DNA from: Candidatus Hydrogenedentota bacterium
GTDB lineage: Bacteria; Hydrogenedentota; Hydrogenedentia; Hydrogenedentales; SLHB01
Direction: 5' to 3'
DNA: 64,000 nucleotides
NCBI GenBank assembly: GCA_029552745.1
Contig: JAKPDK010000169.1
Coordinates: forward strand, 1 to 64,000
Shown here: positions 42,494-52,018 of the stretch, one piece after another
Numbering within the stretch: position 1 is the first letter of the stretch
How the letters are laid out: the number at the start of each line of letters is the position of its first letter
Position numbers and translations under genes: made by a program
Notes under the pieces: generated by a model
The model's input: only the letters and a program-made list of their open reading frames with translations
What the model was told of the DNA's origin: nothing
Databases searched by the model: none

Positions 42494-43114
42494 GTGAGAA
42501 CACGAAAAACGCCTCCACCCCACTTTGATGATGCGGAAATTGTTCGCCGTTGTCTCAATGGCGACACAGAGGCGTTTGGAAGACTAGTGGAGAAATACCA
42601 AGGAGCGGTCTACGCCATTGCGTACGCTTACCTTAGAAACCGCGAGTCCTCGCTCGAGGTGCTACAGGAATCATTCTGCACGGCCTACACGAATCTGGCG
42701 CAACTTCGGAACACAAGCGCCTTTGGGCCTTGGTTGAAAGAAATCACGTGCCACAAAGCGAGTCAAGTAGCGAAAGAAGAAAGACGCCGTACAAAGTTTG
42801 AAACACCGTTCCCACTGAGAAAAGTTGTGTCGCTGGAAGAGGCGCGAGATCGTGCCCCCGATATAGACAAACAGACAGATGTTCGTGCGGCAGTCTTGGA
42901 AGCAATCGACACGTTACCGGAACATTATCGTTTGGTGGTTGTGCTCCGATACCTTCAGGAGTTGACCTACAACGAAATAGCGGATTTTTTGGGCGAATCG
43001 TACGATGAGGTGCGCGGTATCTTGCAAAAGGCGGGGAAAATGCTCCGCGACGCTCTCAGCAATACCGACTTTGGAAATGAAAGGGGCTCGGCGTGGCATC
43101 GTGTGCACAAATAG
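42494..43114 (+). CDS. ECF-type RNA polymerase sigma factor
   Basis: This 206-residue protein has the sigma-2 region (GDTEAFGRLVEKYQGAVYAIAYAYLRN ... QESFCTAYTNLAQL) and the sigma-4 region (LPEHYRLVVVLRYLQELTYNEIADFLG with a helix-turn-helix). It directs transcription in response to an extracytoplasmic signal. The start is a GTG with GGAAAG about nine bases upstream. Its end overlaps the anti-sigma gene by 22 bases, indicating a coupled pair. Confidence 0.92.
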   Translation: MRTRKTPPPHFDDAEIVRRCLNGDTEAFGRLVEKYQGAVYAIAYAYLRNRESSLEVLQESFCTAYTNLAQLRNTSAFGPWLKEITCHKASQVAKEERRRTKFETPFPLRKVVSLEEARDRAPDIDKQTDVRAAVLEAIDTLPEHYRLVVVLRYLQELTYNEIADFLGESYDEVRGILQKAGKMLRDALSNTDFGNERGSAWHRVHK

Positions 43115-44403
43115 ATAAACAGATGCAAGCCTATGTGGATGGAGAGCTTCGACGGTCCGAAGTGGTGGTATTTGAACAACACATTTCGGAATGTGCCGCT
43201 TGTGCCGAAACGCTCCGAAAACAGCAAAAGACATCTGCGATCCTGTTTGAATCCTTTGCTCAAGACAGAATGACACACTCCGTTCGAGACGAGGTGATGA
43301 AACGTCTTCCAGCGGCACCTCTGTCCACTGAGGAAGACATTGACGCCATCAACTGGCGCGCCAAACATCCTGGAAGTCTCATTTCTCGCCTATTTAAGGG
43401 TGTGCCGGTTGCCGTTGCGCTTTTGCTATTGGTGGTGGCTGCTTTGATCCGTTATTACTGGCCGGAAGCCCCGGTAACAAGTCCCGCTGTCGTTGGAATG
43501 ATCACGCAGTCTCAAGGGCTCTCCATTTGTCGCGCAGAGGGAGTGGAAAACCCACAACCGGCAAAGCTCCAACATCTAATTGATCGGGGAACACGCCTGG
43601 AAACAACGAATGAATCGCGGTTGATGTTGTCTTTTCGCTCGTCAACGGAAGTGAAAGTTAATGGCAATACGCGGTTGACAGTTCATGATGAACGGAACCT
43701 CAGTTTGGAAGAGGGAGAACTTTACCTACGAGTGGGTAAGGACGGTCGACACTTCGTTGTGAACACTCCAAATGGTAAGGTACGCGTATTCGGCACGGCA
43801 TTTATTGTGCGAGTCCAACAGCAAGAAACCAGAGTGTTTGTCGAAGAAGGCTTAGTTCAAGTCGAAAGTTCAGGCAACCGAACGGATTTCGCCGCGGTAA
43901 GCGCTGGGCAGGAAACAAGCATCATGCCGGATGGGCGGATTGCACGGCCTCGTCCTACAAATGTCGAGGCAGTTACCAAGTGGGCAGCGGCCCTACAGCC
44001 GAATAGCCTTGCCAATCAACGGTTCCGTGAAATTTTCCCGCCCGTCAAAGATTTGGTTGAAATAACCGCCACCCATATTTACCGAATACCGCTCGTGTAT
44101 GAAAACACGGCTTGCAGTATTCATGCGGTTCGCCTGTATGGGCGGCCCCCGCGAGGGGTAAATTCCCTATGTAGTTACGATGTTTACGTCTATGATCAGG
44201 ACATGAAACCCTTGTTTAAGGCGAGGGTGAACGGCCAAGTTCTGGCGGAAGTGGGACGGACTTACTACGACATCCCGGTTCCCGGAAAGCCGTTAGAAGG
44301 ACTTCGGGCGTTGGCGGTTTCGCTGGTGCCGGATTTCTCCACGGGAGACACAGAAACGAATTTTGAGGTGAAGGCGGTCGTTTTGCCTCAGAACAACAGT
44401 TGA
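43093..44403 (+). CDS. Anti-sigma factor with zinc finger and FecR-like domain
   Basis: The 436-residue protein begins with a zf-HC2/ZAS pattern: Cys4, His30, Cys34 and Cys37. A membrane helix lies at about 104-120, followed by a FecR-like beta domain (GTRLETTNESRLML ... VFGTAFIVRVQQQETRVFVEEGLVQV). A further beta-rich domain (about 330-436, with VRLYGRPPRG and YYDIPVPG) may bind carbohydrate or another ligand. It probably holds the sigma factor at the membrane and responds to a periplasmic signal. Start GTG 43093 lies inside the sigma gene. Confidence 0.85.
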   Translation: MASCAQIDKQMQAYVDGELRRSEVVVFEQHISECAACAETLRKQQKTSAILFESFAQDRMTHSVRDEVMKRLPAAPLSTEEDIDAINWRAKHPGSLISRLFKGVPVAVALLLLVVAALIRYYWPEAPVTSPAVVGMITQSQGLSICRAEGVENPQPAKLQHLIDRGTRLETTNESRLMLSFRSSTEVKVNGNTRLTVHDERNLSLEEGELYLRVGKDGRHFVVNTPNGKVRVFGTAFIVRVQQQETRVFVEEGLVQVESSGNRTDFAAVSAGQETSIMPDGRIARPRPTNVEAVTKWAAALQPNSLANQRFREIFPPVKDLVEITATHIYRIPLVYENTACSIHAVRLYGRPPRGVNSLCSYDVYVYDQDMKPLFKARVNGQVLAEVGRTYYDIPVPGKPLEGLRALAVSLVPDFSTGDTETNFEVKAVVLPQNNS

Positions 44404-44741: not shown

Positions 44742-45320
44742 TTAGAACTGGACTTGCGGAGCTTGACGGGCGGCTTCTGTCCCCAGTTCAAAGAACTGGC
44801 GGGGTTTAAAAGCATAAACCATAGCGACCATATTGGCTGGGAAAACCATCACGGCATTGTTAAAATCCCGCACCGTAGCGTTGTACATCGAATTTGCCAT
44901 TTGGATTCGGTTTTCGGTATCGGCCAACTGCGCTTGCAAATCTAGAAAGTTCTGATTCGCTTTTAGGTCAGGATATCTTTCCAACCGAACCATCAACCGT
45001 CCCAAAGCACCCTGAAGCAGGCTCTCGGTTGCTGCCTGTTCCTGAGGGCTGCCTTGGTTTGCTACACACTGTTCCCGCAACCGAGTGACCTCTTCGAGCA
45101 ATTCGCGCTCATGGGCCGCATAGCCTTTGACTGTATTTACAAGGTTGGGAATTAGATCGTATCTGCGTTGCAGTTCGGTTTGAATGTTTGCCCACGAAGC
45201 ATCGCACTGATTCCCGAGTCGGATCAGTCTGTTATAGACACCTATCACAAACCCCGCCAAAAGGACGATTAGGAGCACTAACCCTGCCATCGCCACAAGA
45301 AGGAATAGAAACACGCTCAT
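44742..45320 (-). CDS. LemA family protein
   Basis: This 192-residue protein has an N-terminal transmembrane helix (about residues 5-27) and the LemA pattern: YNRLIRLGNQCDASWANIQTELQRRYDLIPNLVNTVKGYA, then helices ending DFNNAVMVFPANMVA. LemA proteins are conserved, membrane-anchored four-helix bundles of unknown biochemical role. GGAAAGG is located upstream of the ATG. Confidence 0.9.
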   Translation of the reverse strand: MSVFLFLLVAMAGLVLLIVLLAGFVIGVYNRLIRLGNQCDASWANIQTELQRRYDLIPNLVNTVKGYAAHERELLEEVTRLREQCVANQGSPQEQAATESLLQGALGRLMVRLERYPDLKANQNFLDLQAQLADTENRIQMANSMYNATVRDFNNAVMVFPANMVAMVYAFKPRQFFELGTEAARQAPQVQF

Positions 45321-45640: not shown

Positions 45641-46180
45641 GTGATCTGTGAAAAGTGTCATAAGAACTTGGCAACCATGCGTTATGCCGAGGTTATCGAC
45701 GGCAAGGTTTCCGAGTTAAGAATGTGCGCGGAGTGTTATAAGAAACTCCAAAACGAGCTCTCATTAGGCTTTGAAATAGCTGGGAGTGCGCCGTCACCCC
45801 ATCGGATTACCGAGAAACAAGCCGAGGCTCTTGCCAGTAAAACGGAAGGTGATCAATGCCGCGTATGCGGACTTACTGTAAGAGAAGTCCTCGAAACCGG
45901 TTATGTCGGCTGTGCGGCATGCTATGAGCACATGAGAGAAAAATTGGAAGTTTTCCTAAACGAGATCCACGGTAGCCTGCGCCATTGCGGCAAGAAACAA
46001 CGCCTGGACGACGCACGAGAACAACTTCGCGCCCAGCTCCGCACCAAACGCGCTCTGTTACAAACAGCCTTGGACACAGAAAACTACGAAGAGGCTGCTG
46101 TGTTAAGGGATGCCATCCGCGAGTTAGAAAGTGCGTTAAGTATTGCACATGAGGATTCGGAAAAGGAGGGATCGGGTTGA
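45641..46180 (+). CDS. mcsA: McsA-like zinc and UVR-motif protein
   Basis: This 179-residue protein has two zinc-knuckle pairs (CEKC ... CAEC and CRVC ... CAAC) and a C-terminal UVR motif (DTENYEEAAVLRDAIRELE). This matches McsA, which activates McsB and helps ClpC in Gram-positive bacteria. The start is GTG 45641 with AAGGAG upstream; an ATG directly at the RBS is too close. It overlaps mcsB at its stop (TTGA). Confidence 0.85.
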   Translation: MICEKCHKNLATMRYAEVIDGKVSELRMCAECYKKLQNELSLGFEIAGSAPSPHRITEKQAEALASKTEGDQCRVCGLTVREVLETGYVGCAACYEHMREKLEVFLNEIHGSLRHCGKKQRLDDAREQLRAQLRTKRALLQTALDTENYEEAAVLRDAIRELESALSIAHEDSEKEGSG

Positions 46181-47220
46181 TAGATGCCCTTGCTCGAAAA
46201 CCCATTCCTTGGTTAGCCGGCACGGGTCCGGACTCGGACGTGGTGCTGTGGGTGAGGGTTTCGTTGTCTCGAAACCTGGCAGATTTTCCTTTTCCTAGCC
46301 GGTGCAGTGCAGATGAAAAAAAACGAGTGGAACAACGGTTGTTAAATGCGATTGCAGAAAAGAACGGATTCCCGAAAGATGGTTACTACTCGTTCCTAAA
46401 ACTCTCCAAAACGGATCAACAGTTTTTGTGCGAACGCACTTTTGCGACGCAGGACCTTCTGAACGCTGAGGGTCCCCGCGGCGTTTTGATTTCTGCAGAT
46501 CAGACTGTGAGTCTGATCATAAATAGTGTCGATCATGTTCGAATTCAAGCCCTATCCTGCGGGCTGCATACCCAGCCTGCATGGGGTTTGGTCAACAAGA
46601 TCGACGATTTGTTGCGGTCCTCTTTGGATTATGCATTCAAAGAGCCGCTAGGTTTTCTGACGGCATCGTTGTGGCTAGTCGGTACAGGACTACGCGCCGA
46701 AGCGGTGCTGCACTTGCCCGCATTGACCATGGAAAAGAGTATTTTAGGTTTGGAACATGAACTCCGAAAAAAGCGCCATGTTCTGGACGGACTTTCGGGC
46801 AACATCCGCAACGCCCCCGGGGGTCTTTACCGACTTAGCAATGGGATTACCTTGGGAAAAACCGAGGAGGAGCTATTACTTAATTTCAGTCAGACGGTAC
46901 GCGAGGTGGTTTTCCTGGAGCGTTCTGCCCGGGAACGCCTCATGAACGATGCGCGACTCAGTTTGGAGGACCGTGTCGGTAGGGCTCTGGGACTCGCAAG
47001 AGGAGCCAGATTGCTGGAACACAGCGAAGCCATCGAATTATTGGCGTCGTTACGTTTGGGCGTAGCCACGGGCTTGCTGGATACACACACGTTTGAGACA
47101 TGCGACCGGCTGATGATTGACATTCAGCCGACCCATTTGGAGGTCCAAGCGGGACGAGCGCTGGATGAACTAACACGCAATAAAAAGCGGGCGGATTTAT
47201 TCCGTACGCAATTTTCATAA
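46177..47220 (+). CDS. mcsB: McsB-like protein arginine kinase homologue, catalytic residues altered
   Basis: This 347-residue protein has the length and fold of phosphagen-kinase-type protein arginine kinases: SRNLADFPFP, RGVLISADQTVSLII, VGTGLRA and QPTHLEVQAG are recognisable. The family motif NEEDHLRIQ reads NSVDHVRIQ (residues 116-120), losing both acidic residues, and the CPTNVGTG motif reads SLWLVGTG, with Ser164 at the usual cysteine position. The first arginine block reads VRVSLSRN where SSRIRLARN is usual. It may be an inactive adaptor or have changed chemistry. It starts with TTG overlapping the mcsA stop. Confidence 0.8.
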   Translation: MIDALARKPIPWLAGTGPDSDVVLWVRVSLSRNLADFPFPSRCSADEKKRVEQRLLNAIAEKNGFPKDGYYSFLKLSKTDQQFLCERTFATQDLLNAEGPRGVLISADQTVSLIINSVDHVRIQALSCGLHTQPAWGLVNKIDDLLRSSLDYAFKEPLGFLTASLWLVGTGLRAEAVLHLPALTMEKSILGLEHELRKKRHVLDGLSGNIRNAPGGLYRLSNGITLGKTEEELLLNFSQTVREVVFLERSARERLMNDARLSLEDRVGRALGLARGARLLEHSEAIELLASLRLGVATGLLDTHTFETCDRLMIDIQPTHLEVQAGRALDELTRNKKRADLFRTQFS

Positions 47221-47243: not shown

Positions 47244-49706
47244 ATGTGGGATAGGTTTACAGAACGAGCGAAACGCGCTGTAAGTGTTGCGCGGGAAGAA
47301 GCGACACGTCTGGGCAGCGAATATGTTCGGACGGAGCATATCCTGCTGGGGCTTTGTCGGGAACCCGAAGGAATCGCCGCACGGGCGCTGGAAAATCTCG
47401 GGGTAGACATTGAAGCGCTGGCGATAGAAATCGAGAGCCAGATCACCCGCGGCAATGCGGTGGTCTCTAGCGACGAGATCGTGTTTACGCCGCGTGCGAA
47501 GAAGGTGCTTGAGCTCGCCGTTGAGGAAGCGCGCAACTTAAACCACAACTACATTGGTACCGAACATATTTTGCTTGGCTTGGTCAGAGAAGGCGAAGGT
47601 ATTGCCGCGAAGGTGTTGCAAGATATGAAGGTGGATGCAGACCGTCTGCGGAACGAGATACTTCGACTTCTTGGCGAGCAGAACAAGACAGGCGCTCCGC
47701 AAGCCCAGTCGGGCAAAAAGTCTCCCACCCCGGCATTGGATGCGTTTGGGCGAGATTTGACCGCATTGGCACGAGAAGGGAAGTTGGACCCCGTTATTGG
47801 GCGCGAAGCGGAGATTGAACGGGTGATCCAAATCTTAAGCCGCCGAACCAAAAACAACCCCGTTTTGATTGGTGAAGCGGGTGTTGGTAAGACGGCAATC
47901 GTGGAAGGGTTGGCGCAAGCGATCGTTGCGGGAGAAGTACCTGACTTGTTGCTAGGGCGTCGGGTTTTGACGCTTGACCTGGCGGGCGTTGTCGCCGGTA
48001 CGAAGTATCGGGGACAATTTGAAGAACGCCTGAAATCGGTCATGAAAGAGATCCGACGGGCAGACAACATCATTCTGTTCATCGACGAGTTGCACACCAT
48101 CGTAGGAGCGGGCGCAGCGGAAGGAGCGGTAGATGCCGCCAACATGCTCAAACCCGCGTTGGCTCGCGGTGAGTTACAGTGTATCGGTGCCACCACGATG
48201 GACGAGTACAGAAAACATATCGAAAAAGACGCCGCGCTGGCACGTCGTTTTCAAACTATTCTCGTGGAAGCGCCCACCGTGGAGCAGACGATTAAAATCA
48301 TCTTCGGGTTACGTGATAAATACGAGGCGCATCATCGCGTGAAATTTTCGGACGATGCGGTGGTCGCAGCGGCAAAGTTATCCAATCAGTTCATCACGGA
48401 TCGTTTCTTACCGGACAAAGCGATTGACGTGATTGACGAAGCGGGTAGCCGTGCCCGACTGCAACTGACCACGCGACCGAAAGAGTTGAAGGATATTGAG
48501 CGCGAGATTGCGGAAGTGACGCAAGAAAAGGAAGCCGCCATACGCAATCAAGAGTATGAAAAAGCAGCGCGCTTGCGCGATACCGAGCGGAAACTACGCG
48601 CCTTACTCGAAGAACGAAAACGAGAGTGGGAACGCCGAAGAGACTCGGTCGAAGCTGTTGTGACAGCGGAGGATATCGCTTACATCGTATCCAAATGGAC
48701 CGGCATCCCGCTTACGAAGATTGAAGAACAAGAATCAGCACGGTTGCTGCGAATGCGAGAAGAGTTGCAGCAAGCCGTCGTCGGTCAAGACGAAGCCATT
48801 GATGCCGTCACGCGTGCCGTACAACGTTCACGGGCTGGGTTACGCAATCCTCGCCGTCCCGTGGGTTCCTTCTTGTTCCTAGGCCCCACCGGGGTAGGCA
48901 AGACACTTTTGGCAAAGACCTTGGCGTCGTTCTTGTTTGGAAGCGAAGACGCGCTGATCCGCATCGACATGTCTGATTACATGGAGAAATTTGCAGTGTC
49001 GCGGCTTGCGGGAGCCCCCCCGGGCTATGTTGGATATGACGAAGGCGGCCAATTGACCGAACAGGTGCGGCGGCGTCCTTATTCGGTGGTGCTTTTCGAT
49101 GAAATTGAGAAAGCCCACCCGGACGTCTTCAATATCCTATTGCAAGTCCTTGAGGATGGCCACATGGTGGATGCCACAGGCCGTAAGGTGGATTTTCGCA
49201 ATACGGTCATTGTTATGACAAGCAACATTGGCGCACGGCGCATTGGCCGCAACACGACGCCCGGATTCCAAAGGGCTACGCCGGAAGACCAGTATCGGGA
49301 AATGCGGTCCCGTGTGATGGACGAAGTGAAGAAGGTTTTCAATCCCGAATTCCTAAATCGGGTTGATGAAGTGGTTGTGTTCCAGCATCTGACGCATGAG
49401 CATCTGCTCCGCATTGTTGACATTCAGGTCAAAGAGGTGGTAGAACGATTACGGGATAAAGGGTTCAGGCTGCGGCTGACCCCTGAGGCAAAAGAGTTCT
49501 TGGTGCAACGTGGGTCGGATGAACAATACGGTGCACGCCCATTGCGCAGGGCGGTTCAGCAGTACATTGAGGATCCTTTGTCGGAGTTGTTGTTGAAAGG
49601 GGAGTTCGAGCCGGGTATGTTGATTGAAGTGAGACTTGACGAAGAACGTCAGCACTTCATCTTCGAGCCGGCGGAATCGAAAGTTGCGGAAGGTGTGACC
49701 ACTTGA
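47244..49706 (+). CDS. clpC: ClpC-type AAA+ ATPase
   Basis: This 820-residue protein has duplicated Clp N repeats (1-150), a first AAA+ module with Walker A GEAGVGKT at about 210, a UVR-type middle coiled segment (about 415-455) and a second module with GPTGVGKT at about 547. It unfolds proteins for ClpP with its adaptor system. A ClpP-binding loop of the usual type is not obvious by eye. It is followed by bamA with overlapping stop and start codons. Confidence 0.95.
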
Positions 49707-52018
49707 CAAAAACAATCTTTTTCCTGGCGCTGATAGGGATAGCCCTGCCCCTGGGGTCTGTTTTTACCGAAGATTACACGGGGCGGACTATCGCGGATGT
49801 ACGTTTCCAAGGTCTGGAACGGGTGAATGAGCAAACCGTCCGTGCCAAACTGGAGGTTCAAAAGGGACAACCCTTTAACCCCAAAGCAATTGCACGGGAC
49901 ATTCGACGGCTCTACGAAACAGGTTTTTTTGCCTCCATTGAGGCGGATGCAAGCCTGGAAAACAATGAACTTGTCATAACCTATATCGTCGAGGAGAAAA
50001 AATTCATCGAGGAAGTGCGTATCCTCGGCTGCGACAAAATTAAGGAACGCAACGTCCGTGGGGTCTTGACGTGGCGTGAAGGAGATACCTATGCCCCGGA
50101 AGCGTTTCAGGAAGAACTGAACGCGATTGTGAAGATGTATCAAACCAAAGGATTTCCGAATGCCCGCGCCGACATTCGAGTAGAAAACGTGGGGCCGTCC
50201 CGAGTCCGGATTACCTATCTCATTGATGAAGGCAAGAAGGCAAGAATCCATCAGATTGCTTTCGAAGGCAACGAGGTGTTGTCTGATCGTAAGCTTCGTA
50301 AAGTAATGAAAACACGACGCGGGTGGTGGTTCCTCGGCGGGAAATTTGATGAATCTGTATTCGAAGAGGACTTGAAGAAAATTGTCGATGAATACGGCAA
50401 TTACGGCCGCATGGAAGCTCAAATCCAGGGGACCGATATCCAGTACGACGAAAAAGGAAAGGGGATGACTATCCGCATCCTTGTAAGCGAAGGTCCCGAA
50501 TACTCGGTAGAGTCTATGGAAGTTGCGGATAACCAGGTCTTTGACGATGATGAAATCGCCAAAGCCGTAAAGGTGCTCCCAGGAAATGTGCACAATAAGA
50601 GCCAGGTGGCAGCAGACGCGCAAACCATCCAGCAGGGATACGAGGATAGCGGTTATATAAACGCGCGGGTGACTCCTTTGGTGACGCTCGACCGCGAAAA
50701 GAAAACGACGCATATCGTCCATCGAATCAGCGAAGGCGATCTGAAATATATCCGTGAAATCAAGATCACTGGAAACACGGTTACACGGGACGATGTCATT
50801 CGACGGGAGATCCTGTCGATCCCCGGAGAACGTTTCGACGGTGGCTTAATTCGAGCCAGTCAAAATCGCCTGGAAGGAACCGATTACTTCGATAAAGTTC
50901 GCTTTACGGTCGAAAATGTAGAAGATTCCGACTCCTTTGCCAATCTGTTGGTGGATGTAGAAGAGGGCAAAACAGGTTATTTCAATTTCGGCGCAGGATA
51001 TAGCACGGAAGAACGTTTTGGGGGGTACGCCGAACTACGTCTCGACAACTTTGATATTGCCAACTGGCCAAAGTTCAGTGGGGGCGGTCAACAATTTCGA
51101 CTGCGTGTTCACATGGGCGATCGGCGCGACCAATACTCCCTTTCATTCACGGACCCCGAAATCGGTGGACTCCCCTTGGCATTCGGATTTGACGTCTTCA
51201 ACGAAAGTTATGAGTACCGAGGCGGTGCAGACTACACCGAAGAACAGAGCGGTGCTCAATTGCGTGTTGGGAAAATCCTCTCGCCCTATGTCAATGTGCG
51301 CGCTATGCTTCGCTATACCGACACCGATATCACTGGTCTGCCGTGGTATGCATGGATTACCTATCCACCCGATTATTGGCGTGAACGTGAAGGCAATACC
51401 ACGGTCAGTACCGTGTGGGGAATCACGCGGAATACACTGGATTCCAAACGAGATCCTTCACGGGGCGCCACGCATGATCTACAGTTAGAACTTGCAGGTC
51501 TGGGTGGAGATAACAATTTCTACAAAATGGAGCACAGCTCTACGTGGTATTGGACTATCGACCGCGCTGAAAAGGTGGTTCTCATGTTCCGAACCCGCGA
51601 AGGCTGGGCAGAAGAGTATGGCGATTCGGACTATGTTCCCCTTCAAGACCGCTTCTTTGCCGGCGGCACGAACACGGTCCGGGGCTATGACAATCGCGAC
51701 ATCGGGCCGAAAGAACGTGGATTATTTGGATTCGGCGAGCGGGAAGCCGTGGGCGGCAAATTAAGGTTGGTCGAGAACCTTGAATTGAAGTATAAGATGA
51801 CCAAACAAGTCCGTCTCTACGCGTTTATCGATGCCGGTGGCGTGTGGCGTGACAGTAGCGAGTTTGATTTCGGGGATATGAAGTATGGCGCCGGCCTGGG
51901 CGTTGGTTTCGATGTTCCTCGCATGGGGCCCATACGTCTTGACTACGGCATACCGCTCAACCCAGATGACGATCAAGGCAGTGGGAGACTACATCTGCAG
52001 ACGGCTTTACGGTTCTAA
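49703..52018 (+). CDS. bamA: Outer membrane assembly factor BamA
   Basis: The 771-residue protein has a signal peptide (about 1-22), a series of POTRA domains (roughly 23-430) and a C-terminal Omp85 beta-barrel ending in LQTALRF with a terminal aromatic residue. It inserts beta-barrel proteins in the outer membrane, so the host is Gram-negative. The start is a TTG overlapping the clpC TGA (TTGA), so it is tied to ClpC expression, an unusual neighbour. A strong promoter for tRNA-Glu lies just after it. Confidence 0.95.
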   Translation: MTKTIFFLALIGIALPLGSVFTEDYTGRTIADVRFQGLERVNEQTVRAKLEVQKGQPFNPKAIARDIRRLYETGFFASIEADASLENNELVITYIVEEKKFIEEVRILGCDKIKERNVRGVLTWREGDTYAPEAFQEELNAIVKMYQTKGFPNARADIRVENVGPSRVRITYLIDEGKKARIHQIAFEGNEVLSDRKLRKVMKTRRGWWFLGGKFDESVFEEDLKKIVDEYGNYGRMEAQIQGTDIQYDEKGKGMTIRILVSEGPEYSVESMEVADNQVFDDDEIAKAVKVLPGNVHNKSQVAADAQTIQQGYEDSGYINARVTPLVTLDREKKTTHIVHRISEGDLKYIREIKITGNTVTRDDVIRREILSIPGERFDGGLIRASQNRLEGTDYFDKVRFTVENVEDSDSFANLLVDVEEGKTGYFNFGAGYSTEERFGGYAELRLDNFDIANWPKFSGGGQQFRLRVHMGDRRDQYSLSFTDPEIGGLPLAFGFDVFNESYEYRGGADYTEEQSGAQLRVGKILSPYVNVRAMLRYTDTDITGLPWYAWITYPPDYWREREGNTTVSTVWGITRNTLDSKRDPSRGATHDLQLELAGLGGDNNFYKMEHSSTWYWTIDRAEKVVLMFRTREGWAEEYGDSDYVPLQDRFFAGGTNTVRGYDNRDIGPKERGLFGFGEREAVGGKLRLVENLELKYKMTKQVRLYAFIDAGGVWRDSSEFDFGDMKYGAGLGVGFDVPRMGPIRLDYGIPLNPDDDQGSGRLHLQTALRF

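Follow-up and report, generated by a model that had tools for sequence, protein, structure and literature searches.

A putative pseudo-arginine-kinase of the McsB family in Hydrogenedentota and its recurrence in other phyla

Introduction

In a Candidatus Hydrogenedentota bacterium (assembly GCA_029552745.1, contig JAKPDK010000169.1), a gene for an McsB-like protein lies among the usual partners of a protein arginine kinase, and its product lacks residues of the active site. This raises the question of whether the protein is still an enzyme and, if not, why the gene is kept. The window, meaning the whole stretch of DNA analysed, comprises 64,000 nucleotides.

The locus and the family of its product

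The order mcsA, mcsB, clpC (Table 1) makes up a tight operon-like block, as belongs to an McsB by descent. The mcsA gene lies directly 5′ of mcsB, whose TTG start codon overlaps the mcsA stop as TTGA, and 23 bp separate mcsB from clpC. A preliminary description of this DNA had called mcsB intact, in frame and placed between mcsA and clpC; both statements hold, as the frame is whole, with a ribosome-binding site and no internal stops. The mcsA product scores 97 bits against the NCBIfam model PrRKinActvMcsABac, under its cut-off of 210, and contains all eight zinc-ligand cysteines in the alignment. A clpP gene is found in the source genome. Elsewhere in the window, a sigma-factor/FecR-type pair (42494-44403, +) and a LemA-family gene (44742-45320, −) are located 5′ of the operon, and a BamA-like gene (49703-52018) is located 3′ of clpC.

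Table 1. Coordinates of the features of the mcsA-mcsB-clpC locus in the window; residue numbers are those of the window McsB, and Bs denotes B. subtilis McsB
Feature	Positions	Strand	Basis
mcsA: zinc-finger/UVR activator protein of McsB	45641..46180	+	NCBIfam match, UVR motif, aligned cysteines
Ribosome-binding site AGGAGG for mcsB, 7 nt upstream of the TTG start	46164..46169	+	sequence
mcsB-like gene: putative catalytically degenerate McsB, 347 aa	46177..47220	+	ORF, profile, structure-sequence matches
Residues 26-33, VRVSLSRN versus SRIRLARN: phosphate-binding Arg Bs R31 to Ser29; R27 kept	46252..46275	+	alignment
Residues 116-120, NSVDH for NEEDH: E120 to S117, E121 to V118	46522..46536	+	alignment
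Residues 150-163, LDYAFKEPLGFLTA: equivalent of the McsA zinc-finger docking loop, conserved	46624..46665	+	conservation, PMC12467219
Residues 164-171, SLWLVGTG for CPTNVGTG: catalytic Cys167 to Ser164	46666..46689	+	alignment
Residues 204-209, DGLSGN for RGIYGE, lid loop: Arg207 to Asp204, Glu212 to Asn209	46786..46803	+	alignment, conservation
Residues 334-339, RNKKRA for the phospho-arginine-site motif RDIRRA	47176..47193	+	alignment, conservation
clpC: AAA+ unfoldase with intact Walker motifs and intact equivalents of the N-domain residues Glu32/Glu106	47244..49706	+	

The window McsB belongs to the phosphagen/guanidino kinase superfamily, with 139.6 bits against PF00217 (cut-off 22.4). 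It aligns with solved McsB structures over residues 11-345 at E values of about 1e-54 (8.7e-55 to 6fh1), and it stays under every NCBIfam McsB cut-off (293 versus 385 bits, 253 versus 500 bits). The AlphaFold model has a pLDDT of 93.5, and its closest PDB match is the octameric B. subtilis McsB 6tv6 at a TM-score of 0.92. The superposition on 6tv6_D (TM 0.92/0.91) runs across 349 columns and includes the C-terminal dimerisation domain. As modelled, the protein is a member of the McsB family by descent with a full-length McsB fold. It is the only PF00217 gene product of its genome, which is estimated to be 99.7% complete, so there is no active paralogue, and a second, active arginine kinase in the same genome was rejected.

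The active site

The catalytic set was scored as R29, R31, E121, R125, C167, R176, R207 and E212 of B. subtilis McsB, the equivalents of R124, R126, E225, R229, C271, R280, R309 and E314 of arginine kinase. The corresponding residues of the window McsB read R, S, V, R, S, R, D and N. Three of the eight are kept, namely R29 (= R27), R125 (= R122) and R176 (= R173), and five are lost, comprising the two acids, the cysteine, R31 and R207. The phospho-arginine site is changed as well, with N335 in place of D338. An enzyme of this family has Glu121, Glu212, Cys167, five phosphate-binding arginines and the RDxxRA motif, and the window protein does not present this set.

Alignment with McsB proteins of known structure gives the same substitutions at the catalytic motifs as the preliminary description had read, namely NSVDH at 116-120, SLWLVGTG with Ser164 for the cysteine, and an arginine missing from VRVSLSRN. 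Since the last block aligns with SRIRLARN, the arginine lost is R31 and R29 is kept. That earlier list was correct in every change it named, but it overlooked the losses of R207, E212 and D338. With three phosphate-binding arginines left, the window protein may still bind nucleotide. Judged from these substitutions, its arginine-kinase chemistry has very probably been lost.

Distribution in Hydrogenedentota

Among 68 Hydrogenedentota genomes, 60 match PF00217. Two more carry McsB fragments at contig edges and are not true absences, and an McsB match is lacking in the other six (G008, G014, G015, G029, G031, G057), three of which are 93-95% complete. All 60 McsB sequences keep between zero and three of the eight catalytic residues, 18 of them keep none, and intermediates towards intact McsB are almost nil. 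C167 and D338 are kept in no sequence, E212 in two, R31 and R207 in four each, and E121 in 11. McsB of Bacillota, Planctomycetota, Lentisphaerota and KSB1 keeps seven or eight, and outside the sequences with a lost set (hereafter dead) the eight columns are 99% conserved. On these counts, the phylum-wide loss is far beyond chance. The preliminary description had treated the gene as a single odd case and had asked for a comparison with related genomes; the comparison instead reveals a state that is phylum-wide and recurrent, as the catalytic set is lost in 60/60 relatives. A single-genome oddity or sequencing error is rejected for the same reason.

In the IQ-TREE phylogeny, all 59 dead sequences are placed on one side of one branch with support of 100/100. 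The group is kept (SH-aLRT 100) when the trait columns are removed and more phyla are added. This position implies most simply, for an unrooted tree, that the loss predates the diversification of Hydrogenedentota.

The mcsA gene is adjacent to mcsB in every Hydrogenedentota locus with enough flank, and clpC adjoins the pair in the window and in most relatives. In family f10 (L144, L148-L150, L158-L161, L164-L170), clpC is usually found away from mcsAB and mcsA is still paired with mcsB. The lid loop is longer by 11-67 residues in 37 of the 60 sequences. Insertions of approximately 30-65 residues occur there in many families, including f3, f5, f9, f10 and f11 (L023-L029, L142-L170).

Selection and conserved regions

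The dN/dS ratio, calculated by the Nei-Gojobori method for unsaturated pairs of more than 60% identity, is 0.036-0.264 in every such pair of Hydrogenedentota mcsB genes. Together with intact frames and loss across the phylum, a ratio so far below 1 strongly supports the earlier view that the gene is retained under selection. An enzyme homologue that lacks its catalytic motifs and evolves under purifying selection is, as far as sequence goes, a putative pseudokinase.

Mean column conservation over the whole protein is 0.526 in the dead set and 0.570 in the active set, and over the eight catalytic columns it is 0.323 versus 0.993. The loop at Bs 153-166, whose position was taken from a review, receives the zinc finger of McsA and orients the catalytic cysteine (PMC12467219); its mean conservation is 0.714 in both sets. 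The columns lost are mostly active-site or phospho-arginine-site positions. Those kept comprise R34, N35, H123, G172-T-G174, H182, E251, R255 and R341. In McsA, the eight zinc cysteines are present in 58/59 Hydrogenedentota sequences. Since both the docking loop and the zinc fingers are constrained, binding of McsA is the likely reason that McsB is kept.

Catalytic residues at other positions, which the preliminary description had named as the finding that would overturn it, were looked for. No newly conserved cysteine or acid occurs at the active site in the alignment columns of the Hydrogenedentota clade, which makes a nearby shift of the catalytic residues improbable. A cysteine at residue 28, 43 or 329 of the window protein is only partially conserved.

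Pathway partners

CtsR has no match in 60 Hydrogenedentota genomes, and the control genome of Lactococcus lactis does match. The P-loop pattern CTGNTCRSP, by which the phospho-arginine phosphatase YwlE is recognised, is absent from 68/68 Hydrogenedentota genomes. The LMW-PTP-family genes read from this phylum have P-loops of the ArsC type (CTGNSCRSQ) or of the ordinary PTP type (CLGNICRSP). The ClpC residues that contact phospho-arginine, Glu32 and Glu106, are kept in 38/38. This motif is general to ClpC and is kept also in organisms without McsB; it is therefore uninformative either way, and its use as an indicator of phospho-arginine reading was dropped.

Recurrence outside the phylum

In the phylum of Victivallaceae (Verrucomicrobiota s.l.), PF00217 scores are bimodal: the majority lie at 172-239 bits, and a second group of 24 genomes lies at 36-148 bits. 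The low-scoring sequences that were read are dead, with mcsA adjacent in nearly all, and one McsB is dead at 176 bits (L224). In total, about 25/141 Verrucomicrobiota genomes have a dead McsB (L201-L224 and L226 are listed as degenerate). One of these loci (L211, genome G159) has an mcsB with an internal stop beside intact mcsA and clpC, which is a broken copy or an assembly error. Planctomycetota contain two dead McsB (L237 and L238). Five changes of state are needed on the tree with the trait columns removed. The losses outside Hydrogenedentota are therefore probably independent, their exact number being unsure owing to several long branches.

The YwlE pattern occurs in 0/25 Verrucomicrobiota genomes with a dead McsB versus 53/116 of the others (Fisher p 1.9e-6, uncorrected for kinship). 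Besides providing the pattern with a positive control, this split is an independent sign that phospho-arginine turnover accompanies the catalytic residues. Two further McsB, L102 and L225, keep seven of the eight residues and have lost only the cysteine (to F and S). They may be at an early stage of loss or be active enzymes without the cysteine. In L102, mcsA is undetected nearby.

Proposed function and rival explanations

Loss that is phylum-wide and recurrent suggests that McsB has a second, phosphorylation-free job at ClpC. The reading that is somewhat favoured is that of a pseudo-arginine-kinase which, together with McsA, would act as a non-phosphorylating scaffold or adaptor and deliver clients to ClpC; its lack of activity, its binding of McsA and ClpC and the delivery of clients are all inferred. 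The preliminary description had suggested a pseudokinase adaptor that marks or targets substrates for ClpC without phosphorylation, and this is plausible in view of the kept docking loop and McsA zinc fingers, the constant neighbourhood of mcsA, the usual neighbourhood of clpC and the missing YwlE signature. The McsB of this system would be unable to move phosphate from ATP to arginine and would keep the dimeric McsB fold. The second zinc finger of McsA would dock on the retained McsB loop (residues about 150-163), and the complex would bind unfolded clients and the N- or M-domain of ClpC. Direct contact would then bring clients to ClpC (and ClpP), and this delivery would replace the covalent phospho-arginine tag. 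The action at ClpC is proposed because of the gene linkage, the ClpC biology of B. subtilis and the lack of another obvious partner. Since clpC is usually unlinked in family f10, the partner may be a protein other than ClpC. McsB of B. subtilis is reported to need its kinase activity in order to work as an adaptor (Kirstein et al. 2007, cited in the review PMC5506225). A kinase-free adaptor would hence differ from the known mode, and a system that lacks the kinase by nature offers a useful test.

The same retained features, namely the McsA loop, the zinc fingers and the tight operon, also fit a pseudokinase that holds or restrains McsA and/or ClpC as a storage or inhibitory subunit and delivers no substrate. 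Such a role does not require substrate binding by McsB, and it has a precedent in unstressed B. subtilis, where McsB sits on ClpC in an inhibitory association (PMC5506225) and where McsA binding and McsB release regulate the system. The sequence offers nothing to separate holding from delivering. The usual separation of clpC in family f10 speaks against restraint too, and restraint is considered unlikely. A changed ligand or chemistry, for example an ATP or arginine sensor or a different transfer carried out with other residues, would be compatible with Arg27, Arg122 and Arg173 in the window protein, with the VGTG and RN/H120 core that is near-invariant in all dead sets, and with the remodelled lid. 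However, these arginines are lost too in other members of the clade, as in the 18 sequences that keep nothing of the set, and a new chemistry common to the clade should show up as conserved residues, whereas no newly conserved cysteine or acid is seen at the active site. This explanation is improbable.

That the protein is still active as an arginine kinase, by means of an unusual active site, is more improbable again. In the phosphagen-kinase superfamily, loss of the cysteine alone need not abolish activity; but here both acids, the cysteine, R31 and R207 are gone together, and neither the phospho-arginine site nor the phosphatase signature is present. As for a decaying gene carried by the operon structure, or an error of assembly or annotation, the sequences do come from MAG assemblies and L211, a relative from another phylum, has a broken gene. 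Yet the frame is intact in 60 sequences, which stem from about 11 families and a large number of separate MAGs, and dN/dS is 0.04-0.26. These findings refute this explanation, which has almost no probability left.

Taken more broadly, the adaptor reading would mean that bacteria have repeatedly converted McsA-McsB tagging into phosphorylation-free ClpC targeting, in which the kinase is killed and the McsA-bound scaffold is kept. One conversion would date to the base of Hydrogenedentota or earlier, and several others would have taken place in Verrucomicrobiota and Planctomycetota. This broader proposal is tentative, with chances a little short of even.

Significance and comparison with known systems

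A natural loss of catalysis that is phylum-wide and apparently repeated makes a non-catalytic function of McsB directly testable. If the interpretation is true, databases mislabel proteins of whole Gram-negative lineages as "protein arginine kinase", phospho-arginine signalling has been wrongly inferred for these lineages, and the phosphagen-kinase fold gains a class of pseudokinases. The literature searched describes neither a catalytically dead McsB nor pseudokinases with the phosphagen fold; the novelty is provisional, since most subscription papers lie outside that literature.

The McsB enzymes of B. subtilis, G. stearothermophilus and S. aureus (PDB 6tv6, 6fh1, 8gqd) have the fold, the length and the mcsA-mcsB-clpC order in common with the window protein, and also the McsA docking loop and the core residues kept in the dead set. 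In contrast, they possess the catalytic acids, the cysteine, R31, R207 and D338, which the window protein lacks, and the Hydrogenedentota systems differ from theirs in having neither a CtsR gene nor a YwlE signature. Bacterial Ser/Thr pseudokinases are alike in their loss of motifs, kept fold and persistence as a clade, whereas their fold is unrelated, and the review of bacterial pseudokinases leaves arginine kinases aside (PMC12599244). B. subtilis McsB as a ClpCP adaptor has the same role as that proposed here, the bringing of clients to ClpC together with McsA, but it is kinase-dependent, whereas the Hydrogenedentota adaptor would be phosphorylation-free. MecA, a ClpC adaptor of Bacillota that is unrelated to McsB in sequence and evolved separately, would be the parallel as a non-enzymatic presenter of substrates to ClpC.
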